A DNA stretch of 64,000 nucleotides from Roseospira marina (GTDB taxonomy: Bacteria > Pseudomonadota > Alphaproteobacteria > Rhodospirillales > Rhodospirillaceae). Each line of letters starts with the position of its first letter. Within the stretch, counting starts at the first letter, position 1. The position numbers and the translations under genes are program-made. A model generated the notes under the pieces. It saw only the letters and a program-made list of their open reading frames with translations, ran no database searches and was not told the DNA's origin. The DNA is taken from the NCBI RefSeq assembly GCF_014197855.1, contig NZ_JACIGJ010000011.1:62001-126000 (forward strand), given 5' to 3'. Positions 3,076-41,238 of this stretch are shown here, piece after piece.

Positions 3076-4098
3076 TCAGCGGATCGGCGGGGCGTATTGG
3101 ATGCCGCCGGCGGTCCACAGCGCGTTCAGCCCGCGCGCGATCTGAAGCGGGGTGTCCATGCCGACGTTGCGCTCGAACATCTCGCCGTAGTTGCCGACCT
3201 GCGCCACGACATTGGCCGCCCAGTCGGCGGCCAAGCCCAGCTTTTCGCCCATGTCCCCGTCGGTGCCGATCAGACGCTTGATGGACGGGTTGTCGGAGCT
3301 CTTCATGTCCTCGACGTTGTCCATGGTCACGCCCAGTTCCTCGGCGTTGAGCTGCGCGAACAGGGTCCACTTCACGATGTTGAACCACTGATCGTCCCCC
3401 TGGCGCACGACCGGCCCCAGGGGCTCCTTGGAGATGACCTCGGGCAGCACCATCGCGCTGTCGGGATCGTCCAGCTTGGTCCGCAGAGCGTAGAGCTGCG
3501 ACTGGTCGGATGTCAGAACGTCGCAGCGACCTGCCGAGAAGCCCTGCACGGTCTGGTCGGAGGTGTCGAACACGACCGGGCTATATTCCATGCCCTTGAA
3601 GCGGAAGTAGTCCGCCAGGTTCAGCTCGGTGGTCGTGCCGGCCTGGATGCACACCGACGCGCCGTCCAGCTCGGTCGCGCTGGACACGCCCAGGTCCTTC
3701 TTCACCAGGAAGCCCTGGCCGTCGTAGTAGTTCACGCCCGCGAAGTTCAGGCCGAGCGAGGAATCGCGGGTCAGCGTCCAGGTGGTGTTGCGCGAAAGGA
3801 TATCGATCTCGCCGGATTGCAGAGCGGTGAACCGCTCCTTGGCCGTCAATGGCACGAACTTCACCTTGTCGGCGTCGCCCAGCACGGCGGCGCCCACCGC
3901 CCGGCACACGTCGACATCGATGCCGGACCACTGCCCGGACTCATCGGGGTTGGAGAAGCCGGGCAGACCGGTCGAGACACCGCAGACCACTTCGCCGCGT
4001 TCCTTCACGGCGTCCAAGGTTTCGGCCGCAAACGCGGCGCTGGTGGACAGAGCGACGGTGGCGGCGCCAGCCACAAGGGCGGCAGCAAAACGCATCAT
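3076..4098 (-). CDS. aapJ: AapJ periplasmic amino-acid-binding protein, copy 2 (canonical)
   Basis: Periplasmic solute-binding protein of the general amino-acid ABC importer, 340 residues, and first gene of the visible aap operon. It carries a Sec signal peptide (ALVAGAATVALSTSAAFA) and the type-3 solute-binding fold, with DAVKERGEVVCGVSTGLPGF opening the mature protein and the SRNTTWTLTRD motif at 102-112. Tandem ATG codons start it; AGAGG precedes by five bases. The next gene downstream is its close paralog. This copy keeps the usual Asn104 and is the more family-typical of the pair. Confidence 0.93.
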   Translation of the reverse strand: MMRFAAALVAGAATVALSTSAAFAAETLDAVKERGEVVCGVSTGLPGFSNPDESGQWSGIDVDVCRAVGAAVLGDADKVKFVPLTAKERFTALQSGEIDILSRNTTWTLTRDSSLGLNFAGVNYYDGQGFLVKKDLGVSSATELDGASVCIQAGTTTELNLADYFRFKGMEYSPVVFDTSDQTVQGFSAGRCDVLTSDQSQLYALRTKLDDPDSAMVLPEVISKEPLGPVVRQGDDQWFNIVKWTLFAQLNAEELGVTMDNVEDMKSSDNPSIKRLIGTDGDMGEKLGLAADWAANVVAQVGNYGEMFERNVGMDTPLQIARGLNALWTAGGIQYAPPIR

Positions 4099-4544
4099 GA
4101 GGGCCTCTTCGTCTGTGTTGTCGATGTGAAACGGACGGGGTCACCAGACTGAATGGAGACTCGGATCGGTCCGGGCCGCCCTTCGCGCCACCGAGACGGC
4201 GTGCAGGGGGCGCCCGGTCGGCCGCTCCGGAGGGGGACCCCTCGAAACGACCGGCGGCGTGCGGAGAGGCCGGAGCACGACGTCAATGACCCGCCCCGCG
4301 CCACTAAGCCCCTCATCAGCAACAGACGTGCCATGCACTGGATAGGCACCTTAGCGGCCCCGAGGCGGTCCGAAAAGCAATCTTTGCCGACGCTTGCCGG
4401 TACGCCGTGTCGTTGCGTCGCCCCACGGGGATTGCTGTATTTGGGGGCAACATGACACCGAATTGAGCAAGTGCCCGAAGCGGCCGGACTGGGCCCCTAA
4501 CCCCAAAATCCGCATTCGCAACAAAAAACGAGCGAAAAAAGCCC
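4099..4544. other. Intergenic region upstream of aapJ and tRNA-Asp
   Basis: No gene is supported here. It must hold the leftward aapJ promoter, but no clear -35/-10 pair is visible on the minus strand. The stretch from 4500 is A-rich on the plus strand (ACAAAAAACGAGCGAAAAAA), probably an upstream element of the tRNA promoter. Confidence 0.6.
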
Positions 4545-4573
4545 TTGCACACCCCCCGGCAGGCTGATACATA
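4545..4573 (+). promoter_or_regulatory. Promoter of tRNA-Asp
   Basis: TTGCAC at 4545-4550 and TACATA at 4568-4573 are separated by exactly 17 bases, with an A-rich stretch upstream. The -10 ends 29 bases before the mature tRNA. A dyad CCGCTGCACAGCGG (4581-4594) lies in the leader. Confidence 0.65.
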
Positions 4574-4602
4574 CCCGGCCTCCGCTGCACAGCGGACCCG
4601 AT

Positions 4603-4679
4603 GCGGGTGTAGCTCAGTTGGTTAGAGCGCTGGCCTGTCACGCCAGAGGTCGCCGGTTCAAGTCCGGTCACTCGCGCCA
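4603..4679 (+). tRNA. tRNA-Asp(GTC)
   Basis: The 77-base gene folds as a cloverleaf: acceptor GCGGGTG/CACTCGC, D arm AGCTCAGTTGGTTAGAGC, anticodon stem-loop CTGGC-CTGTCAC-GCCAG giving anticodon GTC, T arm with GTTCAAGTC, discriminator G and an encoded CCA end. Confidence 0.97.
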
Positions 4680-4695
4680 CTTTTCGAAGGACGGC

Positions 4696-4723
4696 ACGGC
4701 CCTGCGGGGCCGTTCGTTTTTTT
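4696..4723 (+). terminator. Rho-independent terminator after tRNA-Asp
   Basis: ACGGCCC (4696-4702) pairs with GGGCCGT (4707-4713) over a four-base loop and is followed by TCGTTTTTTT. It lies 17 bases after the tRNA CCA end. Confidence 0.9.
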
Positions 4724-4804
4724 GACCCGGACCCGGCGCCAAGCGCCGGGGTTCAGGTCGGATGGACCGGTTGCGATCGGCCCGCGACGGCCTGGAAAAA
4801 GAGC

Positions 4805-4833
4805 TTGCATGGCCCGGAACCTCCGGCTAGAAC
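4805..4833 (+). promoter_or_regulatory. Likely promoter of tRNA-Thr
   Basis: TTGCAT at 4805-4810 and TAGAAC at 4828-4833 have 17-base spacing, matching the style of the tRNA-Asp promoter. The tRNA begins 60 bases after the -10. A TATACA at 4878-4883 is closer but has no -35 partner. Confidence 0.45.
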
Positions 4834-4892
4834 TCGCCCCGCGCCGCTGGCCCGGGTCCGCAGGTCTCGCCGCCGGATATACAAGCGCATGT

Positions 4893-4967
4893 GCCGCCGT
4901 AGCTCAGGGGTAGAGCACACCCTTGGTAAGGGTGGGGTCGGGTGTTCAATTCACCCCGGCGGCACCA
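4893..4967 (+). tRNA. tRNA-Thr(GGT)
   Basis: The 75-base cloverleaf has acceptor GCCGCCG/CGGCGGC, D arm AGCTCAGGGGTAGAGC, anticodon stem-loop CACCC-TTGGTAA-GGGTG giving anticodon GGT, a T arm with GTTCAATTC, and an encoded ACCA end. A short T run follows directly. Confidence 0.96.
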
Positions 4968-5355
4968 TTTTTCTCCTTAGAATATCAATGCTTTATGTGT
5001 GGTTTCGGGGTCTTCTAAAGACCGACCGAAAACGCGAACGCATGGCGAACGCGGCCCGTGATTGGGGGGTGGTGTTCGCGTGCCGTTCAGGACGCCTTAC
5101 CCCACCCACTAGCGTCTTAACCCCTGGCGCCTTGGATGCGCCGAGAGCCAATCCTGAACGGACGAACCGAGGCGCTTATCTATCGCTCGGTACGACCGGA
5201 CGGCCGTGCCTGCACACGAAGACCCCGCCCGGATGCGGATTGAACGCCTCTCATACCAGACGGCGATGTGTCCGACCCTTCGCCGCCTTGTTTTTTTCGT
5301 GCCGCGAGACGCGACGGCGTTTTTCACGCCACGCAGCGCGGCGGCCGGTCGGCCT

Positions 5356-5394
5356 TGCCAGCCTGCGGTGAGCGGGCCACACCGCAGGCTGGCA
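5356..5394. repeat. Perfect 15-bp inverted repeat
   Basis: TGCCAGCCTGCGGTG (5356-5370) and CACCGCAGGCTGGCA (5380-5394) pair perfectly across a nine-base loop. No T run follows on either strand, so a classic terminator is not indicated. It may be a structured RNA end or a mobile repeat; nothing nearby decides. Confidence 0.85.
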
Positions 5395-5614
5395 TCCGGG
5401 CACGCAGACAAACACCTCTTATGATAACCTTAAGTGGCTATGCTTCTCCATTAAAGAGCAGAAACCTCCGTTCAAGCATCCGACCGTATACTGAAAATTC
5501 AGCCTGCAATGCGTATGTGACCGTAGACGCATGCGACCGTGGGCGCGGCTTCCGAGCCGACACCCCCGTCCTACCGATGGGCACATTTTTAGGTTGCGCA
5601 GCCACATGATGTAT

Positions 5615-5629
5615 TAGGGCGACGCCCTA
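5615..5629. promoter_or_regulatory. Palindrome before the chemoreceptor gene
   Basis: TAGGGCG-A-CGCCCTA is a perfect 7-bp dyad centred about 36 bases upstream of the ATG at 5658. It could be an operator or a leader hairpin; no binding protein can be named. Confidence 0.5.
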
Positions 5630-5657
5630 TAGGCGGTGGTCGACGTGGAGAAATGTT

Positions 5658-7814
5658 ATGCTGAAGGCTTCGAAGATCGCCGTCTTGCTTCCTGTCTTGA
5701 TCTGTCTCATCGCTTTGACGGCGGTCGTGGTGACGGGAAGCCTTGCCTACTGGCGCGCGGCGCGCGACCTGAACACCGAAGCCGAGGCCAAGCTGGTGGC
5801 GTTGCGGGAAAGCCGCGCCGCCACGCTCTCCGCCTATCTGGAGAGCATCCAGGACGACTTGCGCATTACCGCCAAAAGTCGGACCGCGCTGGAAGCCTTG
5901 CACGACTTCGCGCGCACATACAGCGCCCTCGGCACGACCTCGCCCGACAGCGACGCCAGGGCAATCCTGCAACAGGCCTACATCGACCAGAACCCCAACC
6001 CACTAGGTAAAAAGTACCGGCTCGAGTCCGCCGGAGATTCGCCGTACGATCAGGCACACGCGAAATATCACGACTGGTTCCTCACCCTGCAACAGGACCG
6101 CGGATACTATGACGTCTTCTTGATCGGCGCCGACGGGACCGTGTTTTATACGGTGTTCAAGGAAACCGACTTCGCCACCAACCTGCGAACCGGTCCCTGG
6201 GCCGAAAGCGGTCTCGGGCAGGTCTACCAGCGCATCGCCGCCAACCCCGAAGGGGCGGGGACCGTGTTCACGGACTTCGCACCCTACGCCCCCTCAAACG
6301 ATGCCCCGGCCAGCTTCATAGGTCATGCCGTGTTCGCAGAGGACGGTGCCTTCCTCGGGGTGCTCGCCTTTCAGATGCCCATCGGCGAAGTCAATGCCAT
6401 CATGCAGTTGCAGGCCGGCATGGGCGAAACCGGCGAGACCTACCTGGTTGGGCCGGATTTGCGGATGCGCAGCGACTCTCGGTTTTCGACCGATGGCACC
6501 ATCCTCTCGCGCCGCGTCGATACACCCGCCGCCCGCGCCGCCCTGGCCGGCAAAGCCGGGGTCGCCCAGGGGAAGGACTATCGCGGTCAGGCGGTGGTGC
6601 AAGCGTACAGCCCCATCACTTTCCAAGGTGTGACCATGGCGCTGCTGGCCGAGGTCGATCGGGCCGAGGTGCTCGCGCCGGTTTACCGGATGCGCTGGTT
6701 CATCGGCCTCGCGGGGCTCGCGGTGATCGCGGGGATGGCGATCCTGGGCGCGCTGTTCGCGCGCACCATCACGCGCCCCATCTCGGCCATTACCGACACG
6801 ATGGCCCATATGGCCGGCGGCGACCTCAACGTGACCATCCCGGCGACGACCCGCCGCGATGAGGTGGGCGACATGGCCCGGTCGCTGCACGTCTTCCATG
6901 ACGGACTGGTGCGGGCGGAAGAACTCGCCGCCGAGCAGGCGGAGCAGGTCCGTCAGCGCGAAGCCCGAGCCGAGCGGATCGCGGCCTTGAACGGGGCCTT
7001 CGACAAGGGCGTGAGCGACGTCCTGGCGGCCGTGTCGGCCGCGACCACGGAGCTTCAGGCCACGGCCGAAAGCATGGCCTCGATCGCCGAGGAAACCCGC
7101 AATCAGGCCGTGACCGTGGCCGCCGCCTCGGAAGAAGCGTCCACCAACGTGCAAACCGTCGCGGCGGCCGCCGAAGAGCTGTCGTCGTCGATCCGCGAAA
7201 TCGGCCGGCAGGTCCAGCAGTCCAGCGATATCACCGGCCAAGCCACGGAGGAGGTCGAACGCACCAATCGCATGGTGGCCGGACTCGCGGCCACGTCCGA
7301 GCGTATCGGCGAGGTCGTGAATCTGATCAGTGACATCGCCGATCAGACCAACCTGCTCGCCTTGAACGCGACCATCGAGGCGGCACGTGCCGGCGACGCC
7401 GGGAAAGGGTTTGCGGTGGTGGCCAACGAGGTCAAGGCCCTAGCCACTCAGACGGCCAAGGCCACCGAGGAGATCGGCCAGCAGATCGGCTCGGTACAGG
7501 CGGAAACAACAACCGCCGTCACGGCGATTCAGGGCGTCTCCGACATCATCCAACGCATCAATGATGCCACCACGGCCATCGCCGCCGCCATGGAGCAGCA
7601 GAATGCGGCCACCGAGGAAATCGCCCGCAACGTCCAACAGGCCAGCCAGGGCACCAGCGAGGTGTCGGCAACCATCACCGGTGTGACCGAGTCCGCCCAT
7701 GAATCGGGGGCTGCGGCCGAGAACGTCCTGACGGCCGTTGCCGATCTCAATCGACAAGCGGCGCACCTAAGGGACATGGTGGAACGGTTCCTGGCCGACG
7801 TACGCGCGGCCTGA
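5658..7814 (+). CDS. Methyl-accepting chemotaxis protein
   Basis: Membrane chemoreceptor of 718 residues that passes ligand signals to CheW/CheA. Order of parts: membrane segment about 8-30; periplasmic sensor about 31-345, probably a double-Cache type ([20 protein letters not shown], then [20 protein letters not shown]); second membrane segment about 347-369; HAMP about 370-420 ([21 protein letters not shown]); methyl-accepting coiled coil from about 450, with the CheA-contact tip from about 558 ([19 protein letters not shown] and [12 protein letters not shown]). Gln/Glu-rich methylation regions are visible on both sides of the tip. No C-terminal CheR pentapeptide is seen (ends FLADVRAA). 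No chemotaxis genes are adjacent, so it is an orphan receptor with unknown ligand. Confidence 0.95.
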
Positions 7815-27275: not shown

Positions 27276-27953
27276 TTACCACGTGATCTCGAACGTACAG
27301 GCACGGGCACCGGCGGCCTGACAGGCGACCTCGCGCGCGGTGGCCCTGCGGGCGACCAGCACCCGGAACAGCCGCTCGAAGGTGGCGGTGTAGTAGTCGC
27401 ACAGGGGGTAGCCGGCCTCGGGCATGGCGGCCTGGATCGGCCCGCCCTCGATCACCAAGCGGGTCGGTCGGCCGGCCTCGCCCTCGAACCGGCCGGCGCC
27501 GGCGAAAGTCCAGGCGTGCTTGCCCATGGCCTGGATCAGGATGCGCGCGGCCGGCACCGGCGGCAGCATCTTCAGCACGACCTGGGCCGGCTTGGGGATC
27601 CGGCGGGCCAGAAGGTAGTCGCCGGTGGCCTCCCCGGCGCGTCGGCTGACCGCCACCATGGTCGGCGTGTCCAGATGGGCGCGCAGGGCCTTGTGCAGCG
27701 CCGTCACATCGGCGGCCGGCACCATGGACTCCGGCGGGTGCTCCCAATGATGCGTCAAACCGGCGGCGGCGAACAGGCGGGCCGCCGCCTCCGCGCCGAT
27801 CTGGGCACGCAGGGCGTCGCCCATGCGGAAGATGCTGTTCGGCCCGATGCGGGGCACCGTGTCGCCGGTCGGCTCCCCCGCCCCACCGCTGTCCGGCGCG
27901 GCACAGTCGGGACAGGCGGCGGCTCCGGCGGCACGGGTCTTGGCATCACACAT
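27276..27953 (-). CDS. bchJ: BchJ, V4R-domain bacteriochlorophyll biosynthesis protein
   Basis: A 225-residue V4R-domain protein of the bacteriochlorophyll pathway. BchJ was first proposed as the 8-vinyl reductase; later work assigned that activity to BciA/BciB and left BchJ as an auxiliary, perhaps substrate-delivering, protein. Seen here: RIGPNSIFRMGDALRAQIG opening the domain, CDYYTATFERLFRVL and the closing CQAAGARACTFEITW. An N-terminal stretch has CPDC, which could bind metal. The start is the ATG at 27953, with AGGA about ten bases upstream. It is the last gene of the leftward bch/puh arm, 170 bases after the puhE fusion gene. Confidence 0.88.
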   Translation of the reverse strand: MCDAKTRAAGAAACPDCAAPDSGGAGEPTGDTVPRIGPNSIFRMGDALRAQIGAEAAARLFAAAGLTHHWEHPPESMVPAADVTALHKALRAHLDTPTMVAVSRRAGEATGDYLLARRIPKPAQVVLKMLPPVPAARILIQAMGKHAWTFAGAGRFEGEAGRPTRLVIEGGPIQAAMPEAGYPLCDYYTATFERLFRVLVARRATAREVACQAAGARACTFEITW

Positions 27954-28123
27954 GGGGTCTGAATCCTGATCGATGCGGCAGCCTGCGGCATGGATTGGCG
28001 CGCGGCCCGAACGGAATGGATGACGTGTTGGTCGAGAGGTCGACATGGGCTGCGGCGCAGGCCGGGTCAAGCACACCGGGCGACGCCAGCCCCACAGTCC
28101 GCGCGGGCAGGAACGCGCGCGCA

Positions 28124-30061
28124 TCAGGCGCGGCGGGCACAGCCCTCAAACGCCTGCCGCAGCCGGGCACCGTCCAGCGCCCGGCCGAGCGCCACGACCC
28201 GCGCTGCCGGATCACTGCCCGGCGCCGGGTCCCACTCCACAACGCTGGCGTGCCCATCCTCGATGCGGAACCGCACCCAGGCGTCATCCACGCGGGCGAT
28301 CCCGTTGAGCCAGTCGACGGCACCCCAGGCGCCCTGCGCCACGTCATCGAGCAGGGCGCGCAGGCTGTCCGGATCCACCGGCCCGGCCGTGTCGCCGCCC
28401 CAGGTTCGCAGGTCGAGCACCACCATATCGCCCGGCGGCGCGGCGTCGGCCGCATCCACGAACGCCCCGATATCCGCCAACGCGCGCAGCTCGGCGGCCG
28501 CCTCCGCCCCCTCCCCGGCGTGATAGTGATGATGATGGTGGTGATGGTGGTGCACAAGTGAGCCCGCCTGGGGCGGCACCACGCCGGCCGCCGGCCGCGA
28601 CAAGGCGACCACGCCGTCCCGCACCGGCTCGCCGTTCGCATCGCGCGCGGCCGAATGGCGGTCGTTGGCCGGCGCCGTGACCGCCTCACCCTCCACGCCA
28701 TGGATGGCCGTCACGATGCGCGCGGACGGATTGAGCGCCTTTAGCGTACCGGTCAGCCCGGCCAGATCGTGCGCAGAGACGAGATCCGCCTTATTGACGA
28801 TGAACGTGGTCTGTGGTGGCGCGGCGCGGCGGCTTTCGGCGCGGCCGCTGGCCTGCACCTGGGCCCGCAGGAAGTCCGGTAGGCGCGCGTAGTCCGCCAT
28901 GAAGGCGCTGGCGTCGATCACCACGGTGAACCGGATGCCCTTGATCGACGGGCGGATGTCGGCGCGGTTGAGCATATGGGTCAGCACGCTGATGTCCGCG
29001 ATCCCGCTGGGTTCGATCAGCATCCGGTCCGGTTTCGTCGCCGCCAGGACCTCCTTGAACTGGTGGGCCAAGTCTTCGCGCAGACCGAAGCACACATGGC
29101 CATCGGGCAACGTCACCTTGGCCCCGTTGGGGCCCCGCACCAGGGTCCCCTCCTCGGCCAGCGCCGTGCAATCATGGACCAGGGCCACGATGCGCGTGTC
29201 GTCCTGTGGCGTTTCGCCCATCCGCCGGCGCAGCACGGTGGTTTTGCCGGCCCCCATGAAGCCCGCCAGGATCTCGACCTGCACGGCGGGGGTCTGCGGC
29301 ATGCGCGAGCGCAGCGACCAATTCCACAGCGCCGCCGCCGGCAACGGCAGCACCAGGAACCAGTGCTCCAGAATGGCCAGCGTCATCATGGTGGCGACGA
29401 AGGTATAGGCCACCACCTCGAACTCGGTCGCGGCTGGCGCCAGGGCGCGTTGCGCCAGCACCACGGTCGCCATCGTCGACAGCGTCACCGACACCGGAAA
29501 CAAGAGGTTCATCTGGCGTCGGTTGTTGAAGAAACTCTTCAGGAATTCCATGTGGTCAGGCAGGAATTCCTCGTTCAGGTTCCGCACCCCGAGGAACACG
29601 TTCAGGCGCGCACTTTCATGCATCCACCACAGCGCGATGAACGTCCACAGGCCCACATGATTCGGCTGATTCCAGGTCAGGACCAGGATCACGCCCAGCG
29701 TGAGCAGGATCGAGATCTCGTGGTACAGGCTGGTCTGGACGGCATGCCAGAAGTGGCGCCAGCCGCGGCAGTCCTCGGCGCACGCGTGGCGACGCGGCCC
29801 CGTGACGTAACCCATGTAGAAGCTGATTTCCTGCCAGCCCCAGGCCAGCAGCCCATAGGAAAACGCGGCATACGCGCCCGATACCGTAGCGTCCGCCGCA
29901 CTGGTGGACAGCCCATACAGCGAGACGCCGAAGATCGCCGTGGCGGCCAGCATCGACCACTTGAACGTCTTGGTCGGCAGCCCGTCCAGGTACAGGATCA
30001 CGCCGGTGGCAAACCACCAGACGAACACGGCGTGAAGGATGGGTAGGGCATACTCGGCCAA
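28124..30061 (-). CDS. puhE: PuhE photosystem assembly protein fused to a COG0523 (CobW-like) GTPase
   Basis: One uninterrupted 645-residue frame joins two proteins normally separate. Residues 1 to about 255 are PuhE (DUF3623), a membrane protein implicated in photosynthetic complex assembly: VWWFATGVILYLDGLPTKTF, SFYMGYVTGPRR, HEISILLTLG and WWMHESARLNVFLGVRNLN. From 260 it is a G3E-family COG0523 GTPase: Walker A GFMGAGKT (267-274), LIEPSGIAD (Glu350), NKAD (423-426), then nine His plus YH (504-514) and a CobW C-terminal domain. The usual CxCC metal site reads HVCF (322-325). Translation starts at TTG 30061 with GGAG nine bases upstream. An ATG at 29302 (Met254) lies exactly at the junction without a ribosome site. 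The GTPase would face the cytoplasm if the PuhE C-terminus does. Confidence 0.9.
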   Translation of the reverse strand: MAEYALPILHAVFVWWFATGVILYLDGLPTKTFKWSMLAATAIFGVSLYGLSTSAADATVSGAYAAFSYGLLAWGWQEISFYMGYVTGPRRHACAEDCRGWRHFWHAVQTSLYHEISILLTLGVILVLTWNQPNHVGLWTFIALWWMHESARLNVFLGVRNLNEEFLPDHMEFLKSFFNNRRQMNLLFPVSVTLSTMATVVLAQRALAPAATEFEVVAYTFVATMMTLAILEHWFLVLPLPAAALWNWSLRSRMPQTPAVQVEILAGFMGAGKTTVLRRRMGETPQDDTRIVALVHDCTALAEEGTLVRGPNGAKVTLPDGHVCFGLREDLAHQFKEVLAATKPDRMLIEPSGIADISVLTHMLNRADIRPSIKGIRFTVVIDASAFMADYARLPDFLRAQVQASGRAESRRAAPPQTTFIVNKADLVSAHDLAGLTGTLKALNPSARIVTAIHGVEGEAVTAPANDRHSAARDANGEPVRDGVVALSRPAAGVVPPQAGSLVHHHHHHHHHYHAGEGAEAAAELRALADIGAFVDAADAAPPGDMVVLDLRTWGGDTAGPVDPDSLRALLDDVAQGAWGAVDWLNGIARVDDAWVRFRIEDGHASVVEWDPAPGSDPAARVVALGRALDGARLRQAFEGCARRA

Positions 30062-30124: not shown

Positions 30125-30763
30125 CTATTCTTCGCGCGCAGCGCCAGCGTCCGGCGTCTCCTGGGCGAGCCGCAGCAGCTCCGCGACCTGATCGCGGTTG
30201 TCCGCGCCAAAGGCGCGCACCGCGATACTTTCGCCGGTCGCGGGATCATCGAAGGTGAGCGACCCGTCGTGCCATTGTGAAATGCGATACGGCGCATCCT
30301 TCGGCACCTCGGCCACCTCGCGCAGGCGGCCAAGGCTGCGCATCATGCCCCGGATGAAGCCGCTGTGCTCTTCCGAGAGCACGGTCAGAACGGCCCCGTC
30401 CGAAACGCGCTCGACGGTTACGGTGCCGGCTCCCTCCAGCGAGCGGTTCCAGGCCTCCTCGCCCTCCTTAGGCGTACCGGCGCCCGGCTCTGCCCCGCGC
30501 TGTGCGGTGCCATCGTCGGTCGTGGTCCCCTCACCCGACGCGGCCGTTTCCACGTGGCGCGGCCCCGGCCCCTCCTGGATGGGCGAAACTTCAATCAGGC
30601 GGACGTCCGCGTAGACAGGCGGTGTGGCCGGCTCACCCTGCCCGGGCCCCAGGCCGAGGATTCGGACCGCGCCCACCAGGCCGATGGTCACCAGAACCAT
30701 GGCGAAGATGGCGTACAGAAGGGGTTTCGGCGGGCTCAGGTCATGGGGGTCGCGGTCGGTCAC
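30125..30763 (-). CDS. puhC: PuhC photosynthetic complex assembly protein
   Basis: Membrane-anchored assembly factor of 212 residues needed in relatives for normal reaction centre/light-harvesting 1 assembly. One membrane segment (about 14-36, LLYAIFAMVLVTIGLVGAV) is followed by a periplasmic domain with VRLIEVSPIQ, then GTVTVERVSDGAVLTVLSEE, FIRGMMRSLGRLRE and FDDPATGESIAVRAFGADN, which are typical of the family. Between VRLIEVSPIQ and the main domain is a Gly/Thr/Glu-rich insertion of about 45 residues, making it longer than most PuhC. It lies between puhB and the puhE fusion gene. Confidence 0.9.
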   Translation of the reverse strand: MTDRDPHDLSPPKPLLYAIFAMVLVTIGLVGAVRILGLGPGQGEPATPPVYADVRLIEVSPIQEGPGPRHVETAASGEGTTTDDGTAQRGAEPGAGTPKEGEEAWNRSLEGAGTVTVERVSDGAVLTVLSEEHSGFIRGMMRSLGRLREVAEVPKDAPYRISQWHDGSLTFDDPATGESIAVRAFGADNRDQVAELLRLAQETPDAGAAREE

Positions 30764-30954
30764 GGTGTCAGGCTCCGTCGCGCGCCGTCCGATGCCCGGA
30801 TGCCGGGACCGGAAACTTCGGGCGCCAGATCAACAAGAGAACCGGTGACGGGTCGCGCCGGCTGACGCCGGTCGGCGGTCCGCCACCGCGCACGGGCGCC
30901 GGCGGCGCCGGCATCGCGTGCCATTCGGAGGGCGCTGCCCCCGGGATTGGGCGG

Positions 30955-31629
30955 TCAGGTCTCCGCCCCGGCCAAACGGGGCGTGGGCGGTGTATCCGCG
31001 GCCATGGCCTCGGTCTCCGGGGGCACCTCGCCCTCCGTCCCGGTCCGGCGGGCGTGGTCCGCCAGCGCATCAGCCAGCACGCGCGCCACCGCCTCCGGCA
31101 CTGCGATGGCGCGGAGCATGGGCTGCGCCCGACGCCAGTGCCACGGCCGCACGTGCGGCCACAGCATGATGTTGGACACCCGCTCATCCTTTTGCAGGAT
31201 CAGGGGAATATTGCCGGTGCCGTCGCGACGAACCAGAAGCTGGGCTTCCTCGATCACGCGGAACGGCAGATTGATGGTCATCTGAAAGGCGAGACCGTAG
31301 CGAATAATGACCCGCTCGCTGGTGATGGTGTAGATCGTGGTCCCCTGCGCCCAATACCCCACGGCGCACAACAGGGCGACCACCACCGCCCCAATCAGAA
31401 GCGGCAGCACGACGCCAAGCGCGGCCGTCTCCAGCCCGACCCCGTCATGGATCGCCGAGGCACCACCCCACAGGGCCAGCAGGCCGAAATAGGCCGCGAT
31501 CCACGGCAGCTTGAACGCCTGCCGGGCGAGGCTGAACCAGCGCGGTTTGCCCTGCCACAGGATTCGCTCCCCCTCCGGCGGCAGTTCGGGCAGACCGGGA
31601 ATGGGCTCGAAGGCGAAATCATCGTGCAC
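30955..31629 (-). CDS. puhB: PuhB reaction-centre assembly protein
   Basis: Membrane protein of 224 residues with a bacterial PH-like domain, a dimeric assembly factor for the reaction centre in related organisms. It starts MHDDFAFEPIPGLPELPPEGE; GERILWQGKPRW and ITSERVIIRYGLAFQMTINLPF are family signatures, and two or three membrane segments lie at about 45-100. A Glu/Pro-rich tail of 25 residues ends it. A stable hairpin separates it from puhA upstream, and 190 bases without a gene separate it from puhC. Confidence 0.92.
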   Translation of the reverse strand: MHDDFAFEPIPGLPELPPEGERILWQGKPRWFSLARQAFKLPWIAAYFGLLALWGGASAIHDGVGLETAALGVVLPLLIGAVVVALLCAVGYWAQGTTIYTITSERVIIRYGLAFQMTINLPFRVIEEAQLLVRRDGTGNIPLILQKDERVSNIMLWPHVRPWHWRRAQPMLRAIAVPEAVARVLADALADHARRTGTEGEVPPETEAMAADTPPTPRLAGAET

Positions 31630-31850: not shown

Positions 31851-32639
31851 TTACTGGGCGAGCAGGAACCCACCGCCGTAGTAGGCGCAGATCTTCTCTT
31901 CCTCAAGCATGGTCACCTGATCCGGCTTCTTGGTCACCGGCACCTGGGCGAACAGCTTGCCCGGGATGGCGGCCACCTGGACCTCACCCTTGCGCTTGGC
32001 GACATGGGCGAAGTTGACCGGCAGAAGGACACGCTTCTTCGCCGCGGCCGGGGCACCTTCGCCCGGCTTCGGCGCCGGACCACCCGCAAGTTCGACCTCG
32101 AAGTAGCGCGCCATGATTTCCGGCGTGTCGACCCACAGATCGACCACCTGACCGACCGCCGTGCCATCGGAGCCGACGACCTTCATGCCACGCGGATCGG
32201 GGCTGTTGGACTCCATCGTGAAGCCCTTGGCCGCGCGCATCGGCACGATCTTCGGCTTGTTGTGGAGATCCAACTCGGGACGGTCCAGCCGCTCGGCGTA
32301 GGCCGACGGGCCGATGCAGTCCAGCAGCGGATTCGCACCGGTCGGCTCGTACGGGGACCCGGACCAGGGCGCGACGCGCTTCGCCTTCAGCGGGCGCGTG
32401 TCACGCTTGAAGTTCGGGACCTTTTCCTCGCCGCCATGGAACAGCTTGAAGGTCTTCGCCGGCGGGATCCAGAGCCAGCCAGCGTTCTCAAGCTTGCCGG
32501 TCGTATCGGCTTCGAGCGGATACCCCTCGCGGCGATCCTCGCGGCGAAGGTACAGAATCAGACCAAAAAAGAAAAACCAGAAGACCCACAGGACGACCTG
32601 CGCGACGTCCATGTAGCTGGTGAAAGCGCCAATAGGCAT
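31851..32639 (-). CDS. puhA: PuhA, photosynthetic reaction centre H subunit
   Basis: H subunit of the type II reaction centre, 262 residues; it caps the L/M subunits on the cytoplasmic side and helps proton delivery to QB. It has the single membrane helix at about 12-31 (VAQVVLWVFWFFFFGLILYL) followed by the RREDRREGYPLE motif, and the globular PRC-barrel region (FTMESNSPDPRGMKVVGSDG, VVDLWVDTPEIMARYFEVEL). It begins 25 bases after lhaA ends; in relatives a separate puhA promoter lies inside lhaA, which cannot be judged here. Confidence 0.97.
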   Translation of the reverse strand: MPIGAFTSYMDVAQVVLWVFWFFFFGLILYLRREDRREGYPLEADTTGKLENAGWLWIPPAKTFKLFHGGEEKVPNFKRDTRPLKAKRVAPWSGSPYEPTGANPLLDCIGPSAYAERLDRPELDLHNKPKIVPMRAAKGFTMESNSPDPRGMKVVGSDGTAVGQVVDLWVDTPEIMARYFEVELAGGPAPKPGEGAPAAAKKRVLLPVNFAHVAKRKGEVQVAAIPGKLFAQVPVTKKPDQVTMLEEEKICAYYGGGFLLAQ

Positions 32640-32664: not shown

Positions 32665-34161
32665 CTATCCAGGGAATTCGGCCAGGCCGAACCGTGAGTC
32701 GGGCCGCGACCGACTCTCCCTCCTCAGACGGACGAGCGGACCGATCACGACCAAGGTCGTGAACAGCAGTCCGATCTCGAGGTGATACACGACCCCGTAC
32801 CCGATGCTCGGTCCGGTCAGCACCTCCCCCAGGAGGCCCTGTTCGGACAGCGACGAGACGACATCGCGCACGGCGCCGCCAGCGGCAATGGCAACGCCTG
32901 TCGCGGTGGCCTGCACGGCACCCCAGGCCCCCAACGCCAGACCGCCATGGTCCGAGTCAGCCAATTCCATGGCGGCGGTCAGGGTCCCCACGACAAACAG
33001 TCCTGCCCCCAGACCGATCAGGGTCGCGCCGATCCGGAACAGGAGCGGAGACCCCAGGGGCGAGGAAAAGATCACGCACGGAAAGGCGACCAGCCCGACC
33101 AGCAGGCCGATCGCCGCCATGCGGCACGGATCCAGCCCGCGCGACAGCCACCGCGCGGACAGGGCAAAGCCGACCAGGTTGCCCCCGGCCAGCAACGCGG
33201 TCAGCAGTGTCGTCTGCGACACCGACAGACCGAGAACTTCACCGCCGTACGGTTCCAGCAGGACGTCCTGCATGGTGAACGCGGCGGTCCCCAGGCCAAC
33301 CGCGACCAGCAGGCGGCTGTACTGCCCCCCGCCGGCAAACGCGCGCCAGGAATCCTTGAACGACGGCCGCTCGCGACCGGGATCGGTCAGGCGCTTGTTG
33401 CGCGCCTCCTGCTTCCACAGCGCGATGATGTTCAGAACCATGGTCAGCACGGCGGCGCCCTGAATGACCCGGATCAGACGGCCGTTGCTGAAATCATCCA
33501 GCAGCCAGCCGAACATCAGCGCGCTGACGCCCATGCCGACCAGCAGCATCACATACAGCAGCGCGACCACGCGCGGCCGCGTCTCGTCCGGCGCCAGATC
33601 GTTGGCCAGCGCCAGCCCCGCCGTCTGCGTCGTATGCAGGCCGGCCCCCACCAGCAGGAACGCCAGCGCCGCACCGATCTGCCCGGCCATAAAGGCATCG
33701 CCGTTCCCCTTGGCCAGCAGGACCAGGGCGAACGGCATGAACGACAAGCCCATAAACTGCATCAGCGAGCCGAACCAGATGTACGGCACGCGGCGCCAGC
33801 CCAGGACGGAGCGGTGGTTGTCGGACCGATACCCGATCAGCACGCGCAACGGCGCGAACAGCACCGGCAGCGAGATCATGACGGCAACCACCCAGGCCGG
33901 CACGCCCATCTCGACGATCATCACGCGGTTCAGGGTTCCGGTCAGCAGCACCATGGCCATGCCGACCGAGATCTGGAACAGCGAAAGGCGCAGCAGGCGC
34001 CTCAGTGGGAGTTCGGCCGTGGCCGCGTCCGCGAACGGAAGGTACTTCGGTGCGATGCGCATAAACACCTGCGCAAAGGTCACCGGTTGCGGCGGGGCCT
34101 CGGGCCCGTCGCTCGACCCCATGCCGTCCGGACCGGCCTTATGAGGATCAGGAGCGCTCAT
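32665..34161 (-). CDS. lhaA: LhaA, light-harvesting 1 assembly protein (PucC family)
   Basis: Twelve-segment membrane protein of 498 residues in the PucC branch of the major facilitator fold; it is needed for assembly of light-harvesting complex 1 and may handle pigment. Typical motifs: SVGMAMVLLTGTLNRVMIVEMG, PLRVLIGYRSDNHRSVLGWRRVPYIW, TQTAGLALANDLAPDETRPRVV and TMQDVLLEPYGGEVLGLSVSQTT. The ATG at 34161 overlaps the bchM stop (ATGA). A second PucC-family gene is at 47312-48760. Confidence 0.95.
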   Translation of the reverse strand: MSAPDPHKAGPDGMGSSDGPEAPPQPVTFAQVFMRIAPKYLPFADAATAELPLRRLLRLSLFQISVGMAMVLLTGTLNRVMIVEMGVPAWVVAVMISLPVLFAPLRVLIGYRSDNHRSVLGWRRVPYIWFGSLMQFMGLSFMPFALVLLAKGNGDAFMAGQIGAALAFLLVGAGLHTTQTAGLALANDLAPDETRPRVVALLYVMLLVGMGVSALMFGWLLDDFSNGRLIRVIQGAAVLTMVLNIIALWKQEARNKRLTDPGRERPSFKDSWRAFAGGGQYSRLLVAVGLGTAAFTMQDVLLEPYGGEVLGLSVSQTTLLTALLAGGNLVGFALSARWLSRGLDPCRMAAIGLLVGLVAFPCVIFSSPLGSPLLFRIGATLIGLGAGLFVVGTLTAAMELADSDHGGLALGAWGAVQATATGVAIAAGGAVRDVVSSLSEQGLLGEVLTGPSIGYGVVYHLEIGLLFTTLVVIGPLVRLRRESRSRPDSRFGLAEFPG

Positions 34162-34858
34162 CGTTTGGTCAGTTCCAAAGCCTGCGAAATATAGAACCCG
34201 TTGGTCACGCGCTCCGTACGGCCGGCCCCCCACCCCTGCGGGCCGAGCGCCACGTTGACGCGCTTGGTGAACCTGCGCTTGCCGTGCGGCACAATGGCCG
34301 GGGACCGATCGCTGCGCGGAAACATCTTGCCGACCGCGTGCATGGTCGCGAGCATCGGCGTGCGCGGCGCATAGGTCATGACGATCGACGACGTGGTCCG
34401 CGCCGCCAGCCCCTCCAGCACCGCGATGGCGTCCGGCATCTCGTAGTGGATCAGCGAGTCCATCGAGACGACGTGATCGAACGTGCCCAGCGCCGGGTCG
34501 AGCATGTCCCCGGAGCGGAACTCGACCGAGCCCGGCCCCAGGTCGGTCGGCAGGCGCTCCCGCGCCAGATCGACGAGGGTGGGCGACAGATCGATGGCCG
34601 TGACATGGGCGCCGCGTCGGGCCGCCTCGACCGCCAGCGCGCCGGTGCCGCAGCCGGCATCCAGCACGCGCCGCCCCGTCAAATCGGCCGGCAGCCAGGA
34701 CAGCAGAATGGCACGCATGCTGTCGCGACCCGCGCGCACGGTGGCCCGGATGCGCCCGACTGGGGCATCCGAGGTGAGGCGCTTCCAGGCCTCCACGGCG
34801 GTCCGATCAAAGTAGGTTTCGATCTCGCCGCGCCGTTCCTGATACGACCCCATGGCCA

Positions 34859-34859
<1 letters not shown>
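34158..34859 (-). CDS. bchM: BchM, Mg-protoporphyrin IX O-methyltransferase
   Basis: S-adenosylmethionine-dependent enzyme of 233 residues that methylates the ring-C propionate of Mg-protoporphyrin IX, the step after Mg chelation. The SAM-binding motif I is RVLDAGCGTGALAVEAARRG; VSMDSLIHYE and the family C-terminus RVTNGFYISQALEL are visible, as is the N-terminal YFDRTAVEAWKRLTSD. The ATG at 34859 shares one base with the bchL stop (TGATG). It is followed by lhaA with a 4-base overlap. Confidence 0.96.
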
Positions 34860-39594
<4,735 letters not shown>

Positions 39595-39620
<26 letters not shown>

Positions 39621-41238
39621 CGTACAAGGTCTCGACGGTGATCGTGGGGACACCCCGTTCGGTGGCGTACCGCTCCGTATTGCGGCGGGCCTTACCCCGA
39701 ACGAAGAACGGAATTTTGTGCAGTTCGCGCTCGGCGTCGGCGGACCAGACAGGCGCGTCCACGACGCCCACGCCGGAGTCGGCGGCGGTGGGGATGGAGG
39801 CGGACTCGGTCGAGGATGAATCGGCCACGGACTCGGTGGATGGAGAGTCGGAGGCAGGTGATGCGCCCGACGCGGACGGTCGGGCGGCGGAGGCGGACGC
39901 CAGGTGGGAGGGCCCGGCGTCACCGTGGAACTCGAAATCCTCCCGGAACATGCCCAGAAGGTGCTCTTCCAAGCCCATCATCAGCGGATGGACCCAGGTG
40001 TCGAACAGCACGTTGGCCCCTTCCACCCCCATCTGCGGGGCGTGACGGGCCGGAAAGTCCTGCACATGCACGGGCGCCGAGATGACGGCGCAGGGCACGC
40101 CCAGACGCTTGGCGACATGGCGCTCCATCTGGGTGCCGAGCACCAGGTCGGGGCGCAGGTCGGCGATGGCGCTTTCGACCTCCAGGTAGTCGTCGGAGAT
40201 CACCGGCTCCACGCCGTAGGCCTTGGCGGCGGCGCGGATGTCGCGCGCGAACTCCCGCACGTAGGTGCCGAGCCCGACCACCTCGAAACCCATTTCCTCG
40301 GTCGCCACCCGCGCGGCGGCGAGGGCGTGGGTGGCGTCCCCGAACACGAAGACGCGCTTACCGGTAAGGTAGGTGCTGTCGACCGAGCGGGAATACCACG
40401 GCAAGCGGGGCGTCAAAGACGCCAGAGTCGGCTCCGGATCGAGGCCCGCCAGTTCGGCCACCTCGCGCACGAAGTCCCGCGTGGCGCCGACGCCGATCGG
40501 CACCGCGTGGGTGCGCGGCTGGCGGAACGTCTTCTCCAGCCAGCGGGCGGCGGTATCCGCGACTTCGGGGTACAGCACGACATTAAAGTCGGCCTCGCCC
40601 AGGCGGGCCAAATCGGCCGGTCGCGCGCCCATCGGCGCCACGACGTTGATCTGGACGCCCAGGCTCTCCAGCAGCCTGCGGACCTCATACACATCATCGC
40701 GATGCCGAAAGCCCAGCGCCACCGGCCCGAGGATGTTGCACGACGGGGCCTGCCCCTCCGGACGCGCCGGACGGTCCGCACCGGCGGCCGGCGCCATCGG
40801 TCCGGCCATGGCGCGCGTCAGGTGGTAGAACGTCTCCGACGCGCCCCAGGTCTCCTTGCGCTGATACGACGGCAGATCGAGCGGCACGACCGGGATCGGC
40901 AGCCCGAGCGTTTTTGCCAAGCCACCGGGATCGTCCTGCAGCAGCTCCGCGGTACAGGAGGAGCCGACCAGCAGCGCCTCCGGCCGGAACCGCTCGTAAG
41001 CGGCGATGGCCGAGGACTTGAACAGATCGGCGGTGTCCCGCCCGAGATCGCGGGCCTGGAACGTCGTGTAGCTGACCGCCGGCCGGGCCGGGCGGCGTTC
41101 GATCATGGTGAACAGCAGATCGGCATACGTATCGCCCTGCGGCGCGTGCAGAACGTAATGCACGCCCTCCATCGCGGTGGCGACGCGAATGGCCCCCACA
41201 TGGGGCGGCCCTTCGTATGTCCAGACGGACAGACGCAT
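39595..41238 (-). CDS. bchB: BchB, dark protochlorophyllide reductase subunit B
   Basis: NifK-like subunit forming, with BchN, the substrate site of light-independent protochlorophyllide reductase. The protein has 547 residues. Asp36 (QGDTYAD) is the unusual fourth ligand of the NB cluster known from this family, and [14 protein letters not shown] and PVIPVDLPSYQ-type motifs (here [12 protein letters not shown]) are present. The conserved C-terminal domain ([15 protein letters not shown]) is joined to the core by a Ser/Ala/Asp-rich linker of about 55 residues (442-497), longer and more low-complexity than usual. It starts five bases after bchN ends. Confidence 0.96.

Follow-up and report, generated by a model that had tools for sequence, protein, structure and literature searches.

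A PuhE–G3E GTPase fusion in the photosynthesis gene cluster of Roseospira marina and other alphaproteobacteria

The fused gene and its surroundings

Here, we analysed a stretch of 64,000 nucleotides from Roseospira marina (hereafter the window; assembly GCF_014197855.1, contig NZ_JACIGJ010000011.1, positions 62,001 to 126,000), in which the photosynthesis protein PuhE shares one reading frame with a GTPase of the G3E type. The fused gene, puhE-cobW, occupies positions 28124..30061 of the window on the minus strand, which also carries all other features of the window described below. It forms a single uninterrupted frame of 645 codons with a TTG start, preceded by AGGAG 9 nt upstream, and a TGA stop, and was recovered at 100% identity in R. 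marina's own genome. A first-pass annotation of the window had read this frame as a complete PuhE followed by a GTPase of the metallochaperone group COG0523, and the in-frame union of the two halves was borne out by matches to PF12291 and TIGR03055 on one side and to PF02492 on the other.

The PuhE/DUF3623 domain (aa 1-255; 29297..30061) matches PF12291 over aa 2-254 (hmmscan, E 3.4e-109) and TIGR03055, the model from which the annotation as photosynthetic complex assembly protein derives, over aa 7-250 with 332.4 bits, compared to an equivalog cut-off of 164.05. Seven transmembrane helices are predicted, the number also given for DUF3623 in a passage of PMC12423673, and the AlphaFold2 (AF2) model contains long helices at residues 2-26, 30-54, 60-82, 100-128, 136-156, 187-207 and 213-237; the PuhE C-terminus would be cytoplasmic. 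Polar residues in or near these helices (E78, H114, E115, N134, S150, N154, H170, E232 and H233) are near-invariant, occurring in 95-100% of 101 sequences, and we infer a resemblance to a catalytic or cofactor site. No clear structural match was found for the PuhE half alone. In its full-length match far over the cut-off, in the residues it has in common with the 101 PuhE rows and in its place in the operon, behind puhC and, in loci that have it, acsF, the window protein is a typical PuhE; it differs in its C-terminal GTPase, as the unfused PuhE proteins examined stop soon after the last helix.

The G3E GTPase domain (aa 260-455; 28697..29284) matches PF02492 (cobW) over aa 262-450 with 79.8 bits (hmmscan; gathering cut-off 20.7). 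Translation and alignment place a Walker A motif GFMGAGKT at aa 267-274 (29240..29263), an ExxG-type motif IEPSG with Glu350 at aa 349-353 (29003..29017) and an NKxD motif NKAD at aa 423-426 (28784..28795), in agreement with the GTP-binding motifs GxxGxGKT, hhhExxG and NKxD defined for COG0523 in a section of PMC7895991. They are followed by a compact His block, HHHHHHHHHYH (aa 504-514; 28520..28552), so that Walker A, Glu350, NKAD and the His tract are all present as the first-pass annotation had listed them. For the CobW C-terminal domain listed there the match is weak: PF07683 (CobW_C) matches aa 558-641, but with 19.5 bits it stays under the cut-off of 22. We refer to aa 550-643 (28133..28414), modelled by AF2 as strands and helices with a pLDDT of 78-95, as a CobW_C-like domain. 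A CobW_C match at E up to 0.001 was obtained for 31 of 39 alignment rows, four of them unfused or remnant.

The predicted structure of the GTPase half has the G3E fold, with YjiA as best structural match. Like the COG0523/G3E GTPases YjiA, ZigA and CobW, the window protein combines this fold with Walker A, ExxG, NKxD and a His-rich stretch. In contrast to them, the fused proteins are in frame with a membrane protein, form a separate group in the tree and read EPSG where the stand-alone COG0523 proteins examined have ETTG. The window protein reaches 62 bits with the ZigA equivalog model NF038288 (cut-off 600) and 37.7 bits with TIGR02475, the model for CobW of cobalamin synthesis (cut-off 332.1), and is thus assigned to neither. 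The nickel-related G3E GTPases HypB and UreG belong to distinct sequence families.

Directly upstream of puhE-cobW lies puhC (30125..30763; TIGR03054), with no acsF gene between the two, preceded by puhB (30955..31629; NF040894), puhA for the reaction-centre H subunit (31851..32639; TIGR01150), a PucC-family gene in the lhaA position (32665..34233; PF03209), bchM (34158..35012; TIGR02021), bchL (34859..35914; TIGR01281) and bchH for Mg-chelatase subunit H (35841..39923; NF009942). Directly downstream lies bchJ (27276..28124), which encodes a V4R protein of the 4-vinyl reductase type. Its listed ATG overlaps the TGA of puhE-cobW (TGATG), its TIGR02019 match (177 bits) begins at aa 92, and its true start is probably located downstream of the listed one. 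The order is hence bchH-bchL-bchM-pucC family-puhA-puhB-puhC-puhE-bchJ, with bchB and bchN beyond bchH, and these bch and puh neighbours confirm the proposed location of the fusion in the bacteriochlorophyll/reaction-centre operon, here the puh operon within a photosynthesis gene cluster. A 139-codon frame overlapping puhB (30768-31187) is without family match and probably not a gene.

Distribution and plausible origin of the fusion

Among 73 genomes of R. marina's family, the complete fusion was found in R. marina and in four more genomes of its genus; in the sixth genome of the genus (G033) the gene is split by contig ends with both halves present, and a second genus of the family (genome G002) also carries the fusion. 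A scan of named genomes with an alignment of the fused protein yielded 143 loci, 80 of which were kept. Of these 80, 50 loci, type strains included, have GTPase sequence in the PuhE frame, a proportion that is not a frequency, the loci having been picked by likeness to the fusion. Carriers include Roseospira navarrensis, R. visakhapatnamensis, Rhodospira trueperi, Rhodovibrio sodomensis, Acidiphilium rubrum and Acidocella, as well as Lichenicoccus, Lichenibacterium, Pararhizobium mangrovi, several Jiella, Aurantimonas and Fulvimarina. Four records among the 50 coincide with genus-mates of the family set, one (L117) is frameshifted after Walker A, one (L112) is cut by a contig end and one (L119) starts inside PuhE. 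Less biased sampling of the class found PuhE in 27 of 385 alphaproteobacterial genomes, with the GTPase on three including the window. In the order, where the first-pass annotation had called for a search, PuhE exceeded the cut-off in 26 of 317 genomes, six of which carry the GTPase (seven with the split one).

The recurrence of the fusion in tens of species excludes both a frameshift and a chance joining and confirms the fused gene as genuine; the frame is open in R. marina and its four genus-mates, and the stop or frameshift at the junction against which the first-pass annotation had guarded was not found. A second, independent start at the junction had been its other concern. No start codon there is common to all loci; some ATG occurs in this stretch in 28 of 50 loci, the window included, at varying positions. 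A start codon of any kind together with a Shine-Dalgarno-like string was seen in eight of 50, and the junction ATG of the window protein (MPQTPA) is a Thr codon in R. navarrensis. As regards novelty, the fusion proposed in the first-pass annotation is real, but it is not unique: its presence in 50 of the 80 kept loci makes it routine in described genomes, the very finding that had been named as speaking against the claim. In our searches of open-access papers, no description of a PuhE–CobW/COG0523 fusion was found. Both halves belong to known families, and the fusion is present in public genomes.

In the tree, one branch separates the fused GTPase halves sampled from the stand-alone CobW-type proteins sampled, which plausibly fits a single fusion and later losses. 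Among the matches listed from the 385 class genomes, no stand-alone member of the fused clade was present, and scores fell from 398-422 bits for fused proteins to 192. Apparent traces of loss were encountered as well. In a Pelagibius metagenome-assembled genome (MAG; L118:3998-5128), PuhE continues into a His-rich stretch and a CobW_C-like tail but has no G domain, an apparent remnant of a lost fusion. The frameshifted copy of Jiella pelagia (L117) is spread over frames 3950-5443 and 4860-6149, and one locus on a long branch inside the fused group (L141) is without the GTPase half. Three unfused PuhE proteins from Rhizobiales (L121, L123, L136) have His-rich tails that may either be left over from a GTPase half since lost or bind metal independently.

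PuhE was also seen joined to other partners. In three loci from the same family (L011, L012 and L014; genomes G030, G029 and G031) it shares a frame with BchJ; family models were run on L011, where a 511-aa translation scores above the cut-offs of both TIGR03055 and TIGR02019. As in the window, the PuhE C-terminus is extended here by another pigment-operon protein, but the partner is the V4R protein that the window encodes as a separate gene directly downstream. In Rhodomicrobium sp. R_RK_3 (L144:3986-6043), PuhE and 5-aminolevulinate synthase (HemA), the first enzyme of the pathway, occupy one open frame of 686 aa (TIGR01821, 648 bits); the HemA match, close to where the contig stops, does not extend over the last part of the model, and HemA could have a separate start at an internal ATG. 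Finally, puhE and hemA overlap in two Roseobacter-type plasmid clusters. The frames with BchJ and HemA and these overlaps would fit a PuhE C-terminus that simply merges with whichever cluster gene comes next, the GTPase acting independently of PuhE. Such passive end-joining is a serious rival explanation, albeit a rather improbable one: the linker between PuhE and GTPase is short and of nearly constant length across 52 proteins, the listed class matches contain no stand-alone member of the clade, and the fusion has been retained across several families.

Metal site and candidate clients

Between Walker A and IEPSG lies the position of the CXCC motif, which the first-pass annotation had not listed. 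In the window protein it is degenerate, reading H322 V323 C324 F325 (HVCF; 29087..29098), compared to CICC in the second fused genus (G002, L008), and the switch-I motif NDF reads HDC. According to Haas et al. (PMC2770081), CXCC occurs in every COG0523 member, and RV0106 of Mycobacterium tuberculosis, in which it is not intact, is handled there as COG0523-like. The window protein resembles RV0106 in this respect; in RV0106, according to the same study, the GTPase motifs are missing as well, whereas the window protein retains them and is fused to PuhE.

Motifs were scored in 50 fused proteins of sufficient length, picked by their Walker A. EPxG and NKxD were found in all 50 and CXCC in 42. The eight without CXCC are the window protein and four others from its Roseospira/Rhodospira genus (L072, L073, L092 and L107), together with three Acetobacteraceae MAGs (L109, L111 and L115). 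As the split copy of G033 also lacks it, CXCC is lost in all six genomes of the window's genus, and so is switch-I NDF, of which L107 retains ND but not F. Walker A, EPxG, NKxD and the His block are retained in all six; the block holds 10-11 His in the five genomes scored and is also present in G033. The linker contains 0-1 His in the three CXCC-less Acetobacteraceae and more than two in 34 of the 42 CXCC-type proteins. The reading of the first-pass annotation is thus supported in part: fused relatives keep the GTP-binding motifs, and 42 of the 50 scored keep CXCC; for the window protein, from whose genus CXCC is gone, the idea of a standard COG0523 metallochaperone was not upheld.

Which protein could such a GTPase serve? 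Two cyclases come into question: AcsF, which is diiron and oxygen-dependent, and BchE, which depends on cobalamin and iron. AcsF was present in 41 of 41 CXCC-type rows scored by adjacency or whole-genome search (L074 from Rhodovibrio sodomensis, L095 and L119 were left out), and BchE exceeded the cut-off in seven of 42 CXCC-type genomes (4/18 + 3/24), or ten counting three partial matches. BchE as general client is therefore not supported, while AcsF is possible. In the six genomes of the window's genus, AcsF was absent (0/6) and BchE present. Service to BchE, as the first-pass annotation had suggested, is likewise not supported by a genus that has BchE, is without AcsF and has lost CXCC.

A functional COG0523 metallochaperone serving Mg-chelation or BchE, the full version of that earlier proposal, could draw on the operon context with bchH, bchL and bchM, the His block, the G3E fold and the BchE in the genome. 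With CXCC missing, BchE rare among CXCC-type genomes and low scores for the ZigA and CobW models, we regard it as very improbable for the window protein. We rather suggest the hypothesis that AcsF may be the client of the CXCC-type fusion, to which the pattern of gene presence points. The ancestral client could instead have been another photosystem metal site, such as the non-heme iron in the reaction centre, or membrane zinc handling. The annotation of PuhE as a photosynthetic complex assembly protein would fit, and so would the CXCC-type fusion of Acidiphilium (A. rubrum, L078); to our knowledge, however, none of the other fused species is known to make zinc pigments, and the genus without CXCC has the reaction-centre gene puhA too, which leaves this alternative quite unlikely. 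That Acidiphilium makes zinc-bacteriochlorophyll is stated in a passage of PMC12654162.

Possible function of the GTPase half

But, why should the window's genus keep a GTPase whose metal site is gone? Our preferred reading, to which we assign a probability of roughly 0.4, is that of a membrane-tethered GTP switch that would derive from a metallochaperone and have been altered in this genus. In its original form, the fusion was most likely a metal protein driven by GTP, tethered to the membrane and acting together with PuhE. With AcsF absent from the window's genus, delivery through CXCC would no longer be needed, and the GTPase may persist as a switch acting on PuhE, GTP-responsive and possibly also His/metal-responsive, rather than as a classical metallochaperone. 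Purifying selection on the G domain is evident in close pairs of the genus from omega, the ratio of nonsynonymous to synonymous divergence, which amounts to 0.16-0.17 in the two closest pairs (window vs R. navarrensis; L073 vs L107).

Several observations weigh against this reading. Omega of the G domain rises to 0.29-0.68 in eight more distant pairs of the genus, and the median ratio of nonsynonymous divergence in G domain and PuhE (dN_G/dN_PuhE) is 1.75 there (10 pairs), indicating weaker constraint than in six CXCC-type groups with medians of 0.38-1.52 (two of them single pairs); the single pair L109-L111 reaches 2.60. The His-rich linker is not universal, as it holds no more than two His in eight of the 42 CXCC-type proteins. 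The AcsF link amounts to one coincident loss, and a test on independent pairs had no power owing to too few independent changes on the tree. In the three Acetobacteraceae MAGs, CXCC and the His-rich loop are lost although acsF adjoins. Adjacency of acsF and puhE also occurs in unfused loci, and many acsF-bearing loci are without the fusion, so that AcsF does not depend on the GTPase domain. Elsewhere in the family, genomes devoid of AcsF simply have no GTPase half.

Weaker constraint and the loss of CXCC and switch I in the genus could also be expected of a relic, that is, a decaying leftover of the ancestral metallochaperone fusion kept by its position behind PuhE. This picture gains from the frameshifted Jiella pelagia copy and from lineages that seem to have deleted the GTPase half (L118) or are without it inside the fused group (L141). 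It has to contend with the low omega in close pairs, with Walker A, EPxG, NKxD and the His block kept throughout the genus, and with complete open frames in five of its six genomes, the sixth being split by contig ends. Decay is thus a serious rival, which we nevertheless consider unlikely.

If the GTP switch is nonetheless followed to its furthest consequence, the fused proteins might form a class of G3E metallochaperones not described so far, anchored in the membrane and dedicated to bacteriochlorophyll synthesis, a proposal that we make with considerable doubt. PuhE would hold the GTPase against the pigment machinery and metal would be handed over on GTP hydrolysis, in the simplest case iron for the diiron cyclase AcsF. 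After loss of AcsF, with BchE alone remaining, the metal site would have decayed while the GTP switch and the His block were kept, signalling metal or GTP state to PuhE as a putative brake on pigment production.

For annotation, it follows that the window's copy must not be termed a metallochaperone by homology. PuhE is widespread in purple-bacterial photosynthesis, and its annotation does not go beyond that of an assembly factor. The persistence of the fusion across several alphaproteobacterial families suggests that an activity of the GTP and metal type has its place beside PuhE, and the carriers include named, non-pathogenic species, among them Acidiphilium rubrum with its zinc pigment. The loss of CXCC in the sole fused genus found without AcsF offers a concrete and falsifiable hypothesis on the client that this GTPase may have served.
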